The translations under genes were made by a program, and so were the position numbers. From assembly GCA_964036665.1 (NCBI GenBank), contig OZ038533.1, positions 15,806,575 through 15,870,574 on the forward strand: a stretch of DNA of 64,000 bases, read 5' to 3'. Shown piece after piece: positions 4,979 to 54,747 of the stretch; positions within the stretch are counted from its first letter, which is position 1, and the number at the start of each line of letters is the position of its first letter. The notes below the pieces were generated by a model that worked only from the letters and a program-made list of their open reading frames with translations, was not told the DNA's origin and ran no database searches. Origin of the DNA: Gordius sp. MW1. Taxonomy: Eukaryota > Nematomorpha > Gordioida > Gordea > Gordiidae.

Positions 4979-5212
4979 CAGGCACGTAGCCAGGATTTTC
5001 CCCCGGGGGGGGGGGAAAATTTTTAAAATTTTTTCTATAACATTTTTATTTCAACATCAAAATTATAAAATATGGTATAAAACATAAAGAAAGTCATTCA
5101 TAGCAATTAATAAGTGTCTTACTTGGTCAGTTTCGTTGCACAACTATAAAATATAAACTTTAGATCTAAAATATTTTTTTTCCGGGGGGGGGGAACCTCA
5201 TTTACGGCACTG
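4979..5212. mobile_element. non-autonomous hAT MITE with 8-bp TSD
   Basis: A 234-bp element flanked on both sides by GGACTTAA (4971-4978 and 5213-5220), an 8-bp duplication typical of hAT. The left end reads CAGGCACGTAGCCAGG and the right end, inverted, CAGTGCCGTAAATGAGG; both run into C or G homopolymers. It has no coding capacity. The right-end type recurs at about 13318. Confidence 0.8.
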
Positions 5213-7818
5213 GGACTTAATGAGACTTTGTTATATAATGCATTATTTTGTCACTTCTTGATCAAATTATTTTGTCACTTCTTGATCTGATTAAATAATA
5301 CTGTTAATTATATTTCTTAACCAAAAAAATCCATATAATGATGTTCGTGCTAAAAAGTTAAAAAATTATCTATTCGGGCTGAGCGACTTTAATTATTCGA
5401 GCATTTGGACAGATTCAGGCGCCCCTGCGGACATTGTAGTTATACAATCGGTCCCAAAAATATTGACAAATCCTATCTCTATAAAAAAAAGGTTAAACTG
5501 GGTGCGTTTTATTACACGATATATTTATAAAAAGGCTACAAAAAATAATTCTCTATAGGGAGGTTTTCAAAAAAACTTGTTAGAAGAATGACGATTTAAT
5601 CCACCTAAATCATGGGAAGCCAAGGAGGCTTACATCCAGTTGACAATTTGACTTATAATCAAATTAAGAAATCGACAATTCCTTTTGAGTAATGAAATTA
5701 ATGTAAAGTACATTGGACTCCATACCATAGCCCTAATGGCCTCTACCCCTTCCCACTTCCTTTTAAGTTATATTGCCATGAATTCATTCATATGACAAAA
5801 TGCGTAATTTAATAGCTTATAAATGGTCCTTATACTTGATATCTCCGTATAATAAGTATATATGCATATAGGGTTGCAATTTATATTTGACTTTAAAATC
5901 TAGCGCCTACCAAAAAGCTTTTAACGAATTAGACCCATTTAAACTTCCTGTAAAAGGAGGTCAAGTGGTCATTAAATGCAAAACACCTGAGGATTTAAAA
6001 TAAGGGTATGCAAGGATTTATTAATGAATCGTACTTAAACCCCCGCCATGCACACTTTTTCAAAGAACGTTTAATATTTAAAAAAGCAATTTTAGATCGG
6101 GAATATTTTACCAAAATCTTTATTTAAATTTTAAAAATTAAGCATTTTGCACCCCCCCCCCCCCACCTTTACTATTAGGTGAATCAAATATTAACTTAAT
6201 TGTAAAAAAATAAAAACTTAAAACTCTTGATTTTAACCGTGATTTCTATGAAAAGAAAAATAAAGGAGGGGTTCTTATCCCCCCACACCTTAGATTAAAA
6301 AACTAACAAATAACTGATCTGTATATTGCAGATTTTCCGTCCCCCCCCCATTTTAGCAAAAAAAATGAGTACCCAACCCTACCCAGCTCAGACCGAATGA
6401 AAGGTCCGAAATTTAATTAATATTTTGTATTTTTAACATTGACCCTGTTAGCTTGCCCATACAAAAAATCAGAGACCAAAAATGCCGGGCCCGCTGTCCG
6501 AACCTGCCGGGCCCGGCCTAATTAGATTTTCGGGCGGGCTCTGGCGGGCACCATCGTAAGATTCGGGCAATTCGGGCTCAATGCTAATTTCAAATAATGT
6601 TTTATTCTGTTTTCGTGTATTAATTTGTCACTTTTTATTTGATTGTATAATCTTTGTTAATCCTAGATTTTATCCAAAGAAATCGGAAAATAAAGATAAA
6701 TTTGTTGATAAAATATAACGAAATAAGTTCTACAAATTTTAAAAATTTCATTTCGTGCATGGTCGGGTGGACACTTAAAAGGGTTCGGGCGGGCACTTAG
6801 TTATAAAATCGGACCCGGGCCGGGTTCATGCAGAAAATTTTTAACAAATCTGCCTCTGCAATGCATAGAAGACCAGCTTGATGCTCATTAAGATTCAACT
6901 CCCATCTGCTCCACTTGAGACTGACCTTTGTATGACCACGTTCCTTATAAATGGATTGTTAACCCATCATTATATTAATGATTTCAACACTACCAATTTC
7001 CAATGGTAAATATTAAGTATACATAAACGGGTAATTTTTAATTTTTTTATATATAATTTCATCCACCTATGGCATCTTACCTATTAAACCTTATTAAAAA
7101 GGGCAAATAACGATGATACGAGAGTGAGATCCCGCTGTTAAAATTGCTTGGTGACAATGTTATGACAAGACTTGTGGACAATGTGTGACAACACAATGTC
7201 ATATATAATTAGAAATCAACTGGGGGGGGGGGGGGGGGTGGCGTCATACTAAAGGGCAATGGGTCATCTAGCGAACCTCATTAAATTATCAAATATATAA
7301 TTATTTTAACTTAGTATAAAAACCAGACACATTTATAAATCAGTGAATTTGAGTAAATATAATAAATAATTTTTCATAGTTTTTTCATTATTTTTTTTAT
7401 ATTTGAATAATCGCATATAAAATCGAAATATCCATCTGAATGCTGGTATAAATTAAAGAATAATTTTAATTATAGGAAAACAGGTTGGTGATGAGAGTTC
7501 CACTTAGAGATAGTCAAGAATAATCACCTGCAAAAATTGTCGATCTCAAGTGTTGCCCAAGTGTCGTGAATGCAATTAAAATGTCGCAAAAAATTAATTG
7601 TATTGTCCTCGCATTGCACTATTTTACATTTTGTAATGGGCACTTGATTTGAAGATGACACAACTGTACAATGATGATTATTTTATGCAATTTTATTAAT
7701 TAAGTAATTGAATAAGTTCTCCTAATTGAATAATAATAACATTATTGGCAAAACATATTTATAGTATAGTTATAAATAATATATTTATATTTCCGTCATA
7801 CTTTCTAAATCATTATAC
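5213..7818. other. intergenic with GC-rich repeat fragment at 6469-6835
   Basis: No gene is visible. At 6469-6835 lies a GC-rich patch of reiterated GGGCCCG/CGGGCGGG motifs starting near CAGAGACC, whose inverted counterpart appears at 26590-26742; this looks like the end of a hAT-type element. C and G homopolymers occur near 6155, 6343 and 7212. The rest is AT-rich. Confidence 0.5.
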
Positions 7819-9421: not shown

Positions 9422-10590
9422 ATGGGTTAGTAAAAAAGATTTTGATTATTTTGTTTATAAAATCAGATGAATGCTAAGCGTTAGAGATCATATGCCCATA
9501 ATTGTCTCGAATATTCTTACTAATGTTAAATTAATTTATGAAAATTGGTAAAGTAAATTAAAATGCAATAAACCCCTAAAATAGCAAATTTAATTAGTTA
9601 GCAATTGGTTTTAAAAACTTAATTGGTTTTAAATAAAGGAGCTATTTTGATAATTTATGTGAAAATGTAGTCATAGACTTGATAGACTGCTCATCGTTAA
9701 ATATAAGTGTATTTTTCCGCCATTTTTAATTATGCACAAAAAAGGTAAGGTTATATGATTAAAGTAATTTTGGTTAATTAAAGTGTTTATAAAACGATAA
9801 AAAAAATATTAAACTAGTTAAACGTTAAAAACAACATTTTAAAATATACAATGTATCATTTACACAATTATGAAAATATTCTGATGATGTGATGTTAAAG
9901 AATAATCATTTATTAACATCTTTTTTATTAATTACTTATGACGAAGGCTAATTCACTTTTCCGTTTCAAAATAGGGGACATTGCATAAACATATGAGAGA
10001 TTGTCAAATTTAAAATAGTGGATTTAATAGTACAGATTTCACCATGTGAAACTTATGGCATGAGCAGTCTATTATTCTATGAGTGTAATCATAAACTAGG
10101 AAATACAATGATTATGTTATGAGCAATTAATAGACCACGAAATGCAAAATTAATGAATTTGACAGGAAGAATGTTTCAAAATGCATTGATTAAATATGTA
10201 TAAATATTATTTTCATATACGGATCAAGGCCGTCTAATTATATTTTTTCATAAAAAATATTTGTTTTAAATACCAAGAATCCATATTAAAAGAATTATAT
10301 GAAGGTAGTATTAAATTTAATAAAAATTTCAAAGTATAAAAAATTTCAGGCCCGTTATCAAAATTTATTTAGATCGTCTGAGCCCATTATTAAGCTTTTT
10401 TGCCCGCCCGAGCCCGGCCCGTTGAATTATTTTAAAGCCCGTCAGTACCGCCCGCGATCACAGCTTTTAGGACCGGGCCGTTTTAGGCCTTTCAGCGAGT
10501 AAGGCCCGCTCGGGCAGATATATAATGAGAATTGGAGCGTGGGGTATGCTAAGCTCGACTATATGACGAATGACTATCTTAGGACAAAAA
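9422..10590. other. intergenic with GCCCG patch at 10345-10520
   Basis: AT-rich with no supported gene. At 10345-10520 there is a GCCCG-rich patch like those at 8897 and 26590. The 15-bp ATCTTAGGACAAAAA at 10576-10590 is the upstream target duplication of the retrotransposon that follows. Confidence 0.5.
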
Positions 10591-52260: not shown

Positions 52261-52852
52261 TTGATATGATATTTTATGATTAATATCGATATTTTACTTT
52301 AAAATTAGCATAGTTTTGGCTCTTGAGTTCAATTAATAGATCTCTAAGTCAACAGTACATGTAGAAGGTAAAAACAAATTTGTAGTAGATGGAAACAAAT
52401 TTGGTATTATAAATGATGTATAAAAGAGTAATATTTTAAGAGTGTTGTTGTCTTATCCGCTTCTAACTCGAAGCTTGCCTTTTCATAAGGTGAACGCATC
52501 TTATATAATAGCTTGATATATTTTTTTCAAATTTTCTATTAAATCTTTGCCGGTTAAAAAACTGATTATTTCATCCTACATCACTTGCAAACCTTTTAAA
52601 ATAAGGATTTTTAAATTCCACCAGATTTCTATTAATTTTTTGTTTCGATAATATAATTATAGTATAAAGTTAAATAAATTCAGATTTTTTAACTTATCAA
52701 ATCCCAGGCCCGGCCCGCACTTTTTTATTGCTCTATTTTAGGCCCGGCCCGCGGAGCGGGCTTGGGCCTGCGGGCCGGCCCGGCACATGCAGACCTCTAT
52801 CTTCAACTACAAACGCGAGCACGCACACTGAGCTTTTTAATATGCTAGTTAG

Positions 52853-53006
52853 TGATACAATTGAGAAACTAATTTATTTGATAGTAAGTTATATATGATA
52901 CTGTTGGAAAAACAACATGGCGAAATGGAAGTCAAACTAAAATGCGAAACGATTAATCATCTCGTCTGGGAATTGATATTAAAATACAATATTCAAATAT
53001 ATAACA
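52853..53006 (-). repeat. 3' LTR of the KLC-carrying element
   Basis: 154 bp; on the element strand it starts TGTTATATATTTG and ends TTGTATCA. The GTTAG duplication lies outside it and the polypurine tract inside. Confidence 0.85.
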
Positions 53007-53031
53007 TATCTCCTCCCTTTGTTTTTGGCTT

Positions 53032-53289
53032 TTAATTATATTTCCTCGATAAGTATTGAAGGTGGGTTAGGCTTAACTGACGGTTGTACACTTGCACCAG
53101 CTCTTGTGTATCTAAGAACATCTTCCTTAGTTGGTCAACTTGCTTCCGTAATAGCCTTCCATTTGCTTCCACTGAGTAGGACAACGGTTCCATTCTTGTT
53201 GCAATGAAACCTTCATGCCACCCTTGACTCGATTTCTTTCTCACCAATCCCTGTTGCTCAGGAAGGAATACTCCTGCCTTTAATTCCTT
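53032..53289 (-). pseudogene. integrase C-terminal (GPY/F-type) module
   Basis: Residues of the fused open frame corresponding to a Ty3/gypsy integrase C-terminus: ELKAGVFLPEQQGLV, GWHEGFIATRMEPLSYSVEA and RKQVDQLRKM, comparable to the family pattern W..G.I...GPLSY.V...G...RHVDQL. It continues in the same frame as the upstream kinesin light chain sequence. Confidence 0.7.
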
Positions 53290-53321
53290 GTCATGCGCCA
53301 AGTTATTGACATTGGTTGCAG

Positions 53322-53873
53322 ATTTATGCCAAATCCCGTACACGAACACAGAAACGGCAGTATCGGTAGGGCCATCACCACTCTTGCAATTTTTTTGCCT
53401 CTCTTTGGCCACTTTCCATATCGGCCTGGCTTCTTCGTTGGTGGCTTCATGCCTTTTGTCGTGGGCCCTTGTATTTATTTGCTTGTACAATGTCTCGGCT
53501 TCCTTGTAGTTGCCCTGTTTCCCATATAAAAGGGCTAGATTGTTGAGTGTGGGAAGTATTTCGTAACCCGAATTTAAGATGGAACCCGACCCATTGCTGC
53601 TTCCCGATTGGTCGTTTATACTAGTTCCGTTATTAGCACCGTCTGAGTCTGCCTGGTTATCTTCGAACCCGAAATCTCTCAGCGTTAGGTTTGATGCCCT
53701 ATGGTCGGTGTTAATGGCAGAAATGTATTCATCGTATTTCTTAATCGCCATGTATTCCAAGTGCTTGCCCATTTCTTCCAACGCAGCCACGTTTCGTTCG
53801 CTAGCCATCAGATTTTGTTGAGTCTTAGCCAACTCGTCTCGTAGCCAAGCATTTTCTTGACACGTAATCGAGG
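53322..53873 (-). pseudogene. captured kinesin light chain fragment (sense, intronless)
   Basis: Cytosolic cargo-adaptor subunit of kinesin-1, here a fragment. The frame opens after a stop at 53876-53874 and reads CQENAWLRDELAKTQQ, then ALEEMGKHLEYM and IKKYDEYIS: the end of the KLC heptad region and the following linker. A serine/glycine-rich segment leads to GYEI, then one TPR-like unit, LNNLALLYGKQGNYKEAETL, then TRAH...PIWKVAKERQKN and VYGIWHKSA, matching KLC sequence after its last TPRs. About five TPRs between GYEI and TRAH are missing, as is the KLC N-terminus. No intron interrupts it. The frame continues into integrase C-terminal sequence. Likely captured from a processed mRNA. The identity rests on clear motif matches; no search was run. 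Confidence 0.85.
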
Positions 53874-54561
53874 TTTATTGTTTAAACTACTTACATTATG
53901 AACTTCAACCATTGGGGGAAGTGATAAATTAAAAGCTAAACTCCATGGTAACCCAAAAAGTGGTACCTCCTTACCCTTGCTAACCACCACTGTTAAAAAT
54001 TTCGTTCGCTTGCCCACTTGAACTTTTATCGTTGATTCACCCAATATCTCTAGAAGTGTACAACCGTATACTAGAGGTGATATGGCCTTTCTAAGTTAGG
54101 GCTGGCCGATTTCTTTCCATAACGATGCATCAATTACAGACACCTGCGCCCCTGTGTCAAAATCCATCACTGTCCAGAGATCGTTGATTTTCACCCTAAT
54201 CGTGGCACGACGCCCTCGACGATTAATCCGGCATATTGAATCCATAGAACCGGCATCATTATCTTCTCCGGTTATATATACTTGCTGTACCTTGTAATCG
54301 TCTTTACAACACCGATAGTAGTGTCCCCTCCTATTACACTTCCTGCAATACGCCATGAAGGCGGGACACTGATTTGGGCGATGATTTCCGTCGCAACGTT
54401 GGCATTTAAATCTCTTGTCGGTTTTAAAAGACCTGTCGTCTTGCGTCCTCGATATCTTATGAACCATAGGAATATTTTCCTGAGTCTCCTTCTCAGCTCT
54501 TTCTATCGTTAGTGCCATGTCTAGCACCTTCTCCAATGTGAGAGAGTCATCGCAGCGCCAA
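53874..54561 (-). pseudogene. gag C-terminus and protease of the KLC-carrying element
   Basis: Frame 54644-54096 crosses the LTR edge at 54562 and carries an LTLEKVLDMALTIERAEK segment. Two zinc knuckles follow (CQRCDGNHRPNQC and CRKCNRRGHYYRC), then the protease active site MDFDTGAQVSVID. A frame break near 54090 leads to 54044-53863 with VGKRTKFLTVVVSKG and LFGLPWSL, the second half of the protease. The KLC sequence starts directly afterwards. Gag begins in the middle, right at the LTR, so there is no leader or primer-binding site. Confidence 0.85.
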
Positions 54562-54742
54562 TGATACAATTGAGAAACTAATTTATTTGATAGTAAGTTA
54601 TATATGATACAGTTGGAAAAAGAACATGGCGAAATGGAAGTCAAACAAAAATGCGAAACGTTTAATCATCTCGTTTGGGAATTGATATTAAAATACAATA
54701 TTAAATTATATAACATAAAATACAATATTCAAATATATAACA
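54562..54742 (-). repeat. 5' LTR of the KLC-carrying element
   Basis: 181 bp, TG...CA on the element strand. It matches the 3' LTR except for about five substitutions and a 27-bp internal duplication (AAAATACAATATT repeated). It is joined directly to mid-gag sequence. Confidence 0.85.
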
Positions 54743-54747
54743 GTTAG

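Follow-up and report, generated by a model that had tools for sequence, protein, structure and literature searches.

In oncogene-capturing retroviruses, coding sequence from a spliced host transcript is fused downstream of gag, replication genes have been lost and a helper is needed. Among LTR elements, maize Bs1 is described as carrying fragments of three host genes within a chimeric coding sequence (PMC5408686, PMC13317346), and metazoan LTR-mediated retrocopies are described as host mRNA joined to an LTR element by template switching (Tan et al. 2016, via PMC5408686), with joins at short microsimilarities (PMC5408686). LTR-mediated transduction of host genes is already known from Bs1 and the metazoan retrocopies; what is new is an amplified, in-frame kinesin light chain (KLC) family in an animal Ty3/gypsy-type element, found in the genome of Gordius sp. 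MW1.

By sequence comparison, the KLC family resembles oncogene retroviruses in having spliced host sequence behind gag, in having lost replication genes and, presumably, in depending on a helper. It is like Bs1 in being an LTR element that bears host gene sequence as chimeric coding sequence. However, Bs1 is described as a plant element with three host genes, whereas the KLC family is an animal Ty3/gypsy-type family with one gene, KLC matches at no fewer than 23 places and nested in-frame deletions. With metazoan LTR-mediated retrocopies, it has in common host mRNA-derived sequence joined to LTR-element sequence, but the cases of Tan et al. are described as retrocopies, and the KLC chimera is a mobile multicopy family whose frame was seemingly maintained. 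The vaccinia protein F12 is described as another KLC-like protein on a mobile genetic agent, no relationship being implied, and as having repeats without heptad repeats (PMC2829069), whereas in the KLC elements the last part of the heptad region is retained and repeats have been lost. No report of KLC in an LTR element was found in the literature covered, most subscription papers lying outside that coverage. A protein-database search with the chimera gave 132 matches at E ≤ 0.001, with only proteins of 154–490 aa as candidates. Among the matches listed (120), the named ones are mostly KLC, some are hypothetical or other repeat proteins, and none spans more than 68% of the query.

The window, which is the whole 64,000-nt stretch of DNA that was analysed, contains a minus-strand LTR element at 52853–54742. 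Its features are as follows (L numbers denote individual copies and relatives).

52848..52852, no strand: left copy of the TSD GTTAG, read directly in the sequence
52853..53006, minus strand: 3' LTR, repeated in direct orientation as the 5' LTR, from which it differs at 7 of 154 aligned bases
53007..53028, minus strand: polypurine tract (PPT) adjoining the 3' LTR, in the same place and of the same sequence type in relatives
53032..53302, minus strand: integrase C-terminal remnant, 54% identical across 78 aa to the 3' portion of the L024–L026 open gag-pol frames
about 53304..53863, minus strand: captured KLC fragment, intronless and in the sense of gag, from the KLC1 match and alignment to the spliced host sequence
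53877..54550, minus strand: gag C-terminal portion containing zinc knuckles, followed by the protease region, with an in-frame stop at 54096–54098
54551..54561, minus strand: primer-binding site (PBS), the identical sequence following the 5' LTR in relatives
54562..54742, minus strand: 5' LTR, with an additional 27-bp unit at its outer end (54716–54742)
54743..54747, no strand: right copy of the TSD GTTAG, read directly in the sequence

The complete element frame proposed in the first-pass annotation, made from the letters alone, is borne out: GTTAG lies at both ends, direct repeats at 52853–53008 and 54562–54717 are 96% identical, and PBS and PPT are supported because the same sequences sit at the same places in relatives. 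The LTRs are 154 bp (left, 3') and 181 bp (right, 5') in length, and similarly doubled LTR ends are visible in L010 and L011. A 280-aa minus-strand ORF (53032–53874) spans both KLC and the integrase tail. Its match to human KLC1 (E = 4.3e-44) rules out chance similarity, and agrees with the earlier reading of an intronless, sense KLC between gag/protease and an integrase C-terminus. Domain models alone give weaker support: the best TPR score in this ORF is under the Pfam curated cut-off (26.3 versus 27.5 bits), protease matches are weak and also under cut-off (E of 0.009 and 0.021), and the integrase C-terminus of the window element has no Pfam match. At the DNA level, the gag/protease part is 80–92% identical to that of three elements lacking KLC (L024, L029 and L030). 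The window copy is damaged by the stop in the protease region and by a change of frame between protease and KLC, and lacks ∼480 bp directly after the PBS that are present in the copy at C7:15433848 (C7:15.43 Mb).

Elements without KLC provide a view of what KLC displaced. L024, L025 and L030 have the same PBS and PPT as KLC copies; LTRs of L024 are identical over 145 bp and enclose an open frame of 1365 codons, and the LTR pair of L025 has one mismatch. When searched in pieces, L024 matches models of protease, RVT_1, RNase H, integrase H2C2, and rve, in the pol order protease-RT-RNase H-integrase. On the basis of paired LTRs, 5-bp TSD, PBS, PPT, and this pol order, the host element is classified as a Ty3/gypsy-type LTR retrotransposon. 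Relative to L024, KLC starts after about codon 446, where RT begins, and integrase sequence picks up again at about codon 1200. KLC has taken the place of RT, RNase H and integrase core, as was proposed; L024 carries these domains in the corresponding region. Older KLC copies preserve the reading frame across both junctions, and in the window's group a further stretch between protease and KLC has been lost. Junction microhomology is 2–3 nt per side, as judged against relatives that do not include the true parent element. The notion of an older KLC pseudogene between unrelated flanks fails because KLC-less relatives show the RT-to-integrase-core replacement, and the same element parts flank KLC in copy after copy. 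Separately, at L026 (C5:14953000–14962900), a KLC-less element is arranged head to tail with 99.8% identity over 4467 bp, and genome matches suggest three units about 5.4 kb apart.

A search of the genome (212 Mb in 12 contigs) with the KLC part yielded matches at 23 or more places, counting the window and excluding the host gene; matches within 10 kb were pooled and the number is a lower bound. A single-copy artefact is ruled out. We examined 15 of the 23 (the window, L009–L021 and L028), and chimera copies sit at separate genomic places with their own LTRs, the different flanks anticipated for an element that moved. A credible LTR pair is present in nine (the window, L009, L010, L014–L017, L020, and L021), all nine with a PBS-like sequence. 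An exact 5-bp TSD was found at the LTR ends of three (the window, L014, and L015), and the scan found none in the other six. Jukes-Cantor divergence between LTRs, measured for eight KLC copies, ranges from 0.027 (L021) to 0.115 (L020). None of the 15 copies has a single open frame across gag, KLC and integrase tail.

On C1, four KLC relics counted among the 23 places, at 10.099, 10.128, 10.158, and 10.193 Mb, have identical match scores and a spacing of about 29–35 kb. The first is L028, in which gag matches are on the opposite strand, and the set looks like repeated duplication of one rearranged copy. Several KLC-element scraps on both strands occur within about 50 kb at C8:4504801–4551447, possibly a mobile-element graveyard. 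Near the KLC copy in L018, a 383-bp direct repeat (5171–5553 and 9514–9896; 99.5% identity) surrounds long plus-strand ORFs and may mark a recently inserted LTR element from a different family.

The gag-protease part may have a history of its own. The window piece is 92.0% and 90.5% identical to KLC-less L029 and L030, respectively, compared with 80–82% to older KLC copies L017–L021. With L014 as reference, positions 1001–1400 are 89–94% identical to KLC-less elements versus 71–87% to older KLC copies, although in KLC and the integrase tail L014 groups with the older KLC copies; the contrast is not clear toward the 5' end, and L016 is intermediate in the gag-protease comparison. The higher identity to KLC-less elements points to recombination, in either direction, that would have joined KLC and KLC-less lineages in the window's subfamily, in keeping with particles shared between them.

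The intron-containing KLC gene predicted from the window was found, and at one place only, C2:1.48 Mb (L022 and L023). Nine exons interior to the gene (a–i) have AG/GT borders and when joined give an open KLC frame. Among the best 120 of 1490 database matches to the host KLC, the best-scoring named relative is from the hairworm Gordionus sp. (72% identity), and crustaceans and others score nearly as high, some with 73% identity. In 11 of 15 copies, KLC starts 57–63 nt into the spliced host sequence, and it starts later in L010, L015, L020, and L028. At the 3' side, KLC stops exactly where exon h does in 12 of the 15 and at most 2 nt away from that point in the other three. Seven exon borders fall inside the fragment, of which four are in deleted stretches; the three that are testable (a/b, d/e, and g/h) are joined without an intron. 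The source of KLC was apparently a spliced mRNA. All 15 copies have a 261-nt deletion (430–690), and further deletions are nested: one of 39 nt occurs in 13 copies, one of 126 nt is found in the older group, deletions of 252 and 18 nt belong to the window's group, and four copies have a loss of 15 nt. Because they have a common exon h end, no intron, and one 261-nt deletion, the copies are interpreted as the products of one capture that was then copied repeatedly into subfamilies.

We suggest the following scenario. In an ancestor of this animal, the RT of a Ty3/gypsy-type element would have switched from element RNA to spliced KLC mRNA and back, a double template switch inside a particle holding both RNAs. 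KLC would thereby have taken the place of RT, RNase H and integrase core with both joins in frame. Because KLC copies lack RT and integrase core, the resulting gag-protease-KLC-integrase-tail element would have depended on mobilization in trans by relatives whose gag-pol is open. Candidate helpers of this kind exist: they have PBS and PPT in common with the KLC copies, and the two LTRs of one of them are identical. As the family spread, successive in-frame deletions would have removed tetratricopeptide repeats from KLC, and the window's subfamily would have come to have a gag-protease part in common with a KLC-less lineage via recombination. The KLC part seems to have remained in frame and mildly constrained while mobile, with copies decaying later. 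We assign this whole scenario a probability of about 0.9. Intronless KLC, common ends, and many insertions support the original proposal of transduction by an animal Ty3/gypsy-type LTR element.

A further question is whether KLC was kept for its coding capacity. In the main count, the 15 copies were kept as unjoined rows, and changes were divided into those that are shared (mostly from the mobile phase) and private (mostly post-insertion). All 9 shared KLC indels have lengths divisible by three, compared with 14 of 47 private ones (p = 1.1e-4). N:S is 64:34 for shared versus 194:49 for private changes (p = 0.0077), such that shared changes are less often amino-acid-changing, and there is one shared stop compared to 16 private. 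Changes found in every copy, or missing from just one (12:49), were excluded from N:S because they may belong to the host's branch. Restriction to 12 uninterrupted copies gives similar outcomes (indels in frame, 9 of 9 shared versus 11 of 36 private, p = 1.9e-4; N:S of 50:27 versus 134:36, p = 0.027). In an alternative count, the N:S difference has p = 0.0029, or 0.0015 with CpG sites removed, and p ranges from 0.0005 to 0.018 as each copy is dropped in turn. Constraint is strong in the gag-protease control (N:S of 87:89 shared versus 269:77 private; indels in frame, 4 of 4 versus 21 of 59). The integrase-tail control shows no N:S difference (38:16 shared versus 88:31 private, p = 0.71), with 3 of 7 shared and 5 of 21 private indels in frame. 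KLC is under less constraint than gag (p = 0.02). The N:S signal in KLC is modest, and together with the in-frame shared indels it provides moderate evidence that the KLC part was maintained as coding sequence during spread of the family. With its frame seemingly kept under mild constraint, Gag-KLC was probably of some use as a protein, or at the least needed to remain translatable.

The strongest competing explanation accepts the same capture but has KLC as a passenger without a role, its in-frame bias arising from recombination between repeats and from less copying of transcripts with early stops. We consider its chances to be somewhat below even. KLC and the integrase tail, compared directly, do not differ significantly (p = 0.59), no single domain is significant when the N:S test is split by KLC domain, and every examined copy has decayed. 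Moreover, repeat-sized deletions, which make up 3 of the 9 shared KLC indels, are expected to be in frame because they are structural losses of repeat units. Yet with repeat-sized indels removed from the alternative count, 6 of 6 shared versus 12 of 48 private indels are in frame (p = 7e-4). The shared-private difference in N:S, which the integrase tail lacks, also stays in that count when stops are excluded (p = 0.007).

That KLC ends exactly at exon h allows for a start based on splicing, in which an element resident in the intron after exon h had exon h spliced to an AG in integrase, leaving one template switch for the 5' junction. Relatives have an AG at the corresponding place, as this would require. 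However, purine-rich sequence precedes this AG in L024, which makes it a poor acceptor, and the 19.8-kb region of the host gene has no significant element relic (best E of 0.034). We view a spliced origin of the 3' junction as unlikely. It is far less probable that KLC RNA, rather than protein, served as a self tag to shield the element from small-RNA silencing; sense KLC sequence was indeed retained in a mobile family, but what is constrained is the reading frame and the amino acid sequence, neither of which matters to an RNA tag. Lastly, insertion of a LINE-made processed pseudogene into an LTR element would explain the intronless KLC and is ruled out, as the disrupted pol does not continue on both sides (the equivalent of L024 codons about 447–1200 is missing), KLC breaks off at its 3' side within coding sequence, and no poly(A) was seen at the junction.

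Returning to capture by template switching with KLC maintained as coding sequence, what remains of KLC hints at potential functions. The N-terminal heptad repeats of KLC are described as binding kinesin heavy chain and the tetratricopeptide repeats as binding cargo (PMC2829069, PMC9481135). Older copies retain the last portion of the heptad repeats, starting near position 93 of human KLC1 chain 9pmb_C, as well as the stretch beyond the TPRs, and have lost repeats stepwise and in frame. A speculative reading, to which we give low odds, is that Gag-protease-KLC acted as a built-in kinesin-1 adaptor, which would have kept the heptad end, shed the cargo-binding repeats in frame, and been under selection as a protein during spread.

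Host gene capture by LTR elements is documented best in plants and retroviruses. Here, a single animal genome has the host gene, open-frame helper candidates, and more than 12 datable chimeric copies in nested subfamilies. The question of whether captured KLC was a passenger or was used is therefore directly askable, and the same system allows the order of capture, repeat loss, and backbone exchange to be examined.
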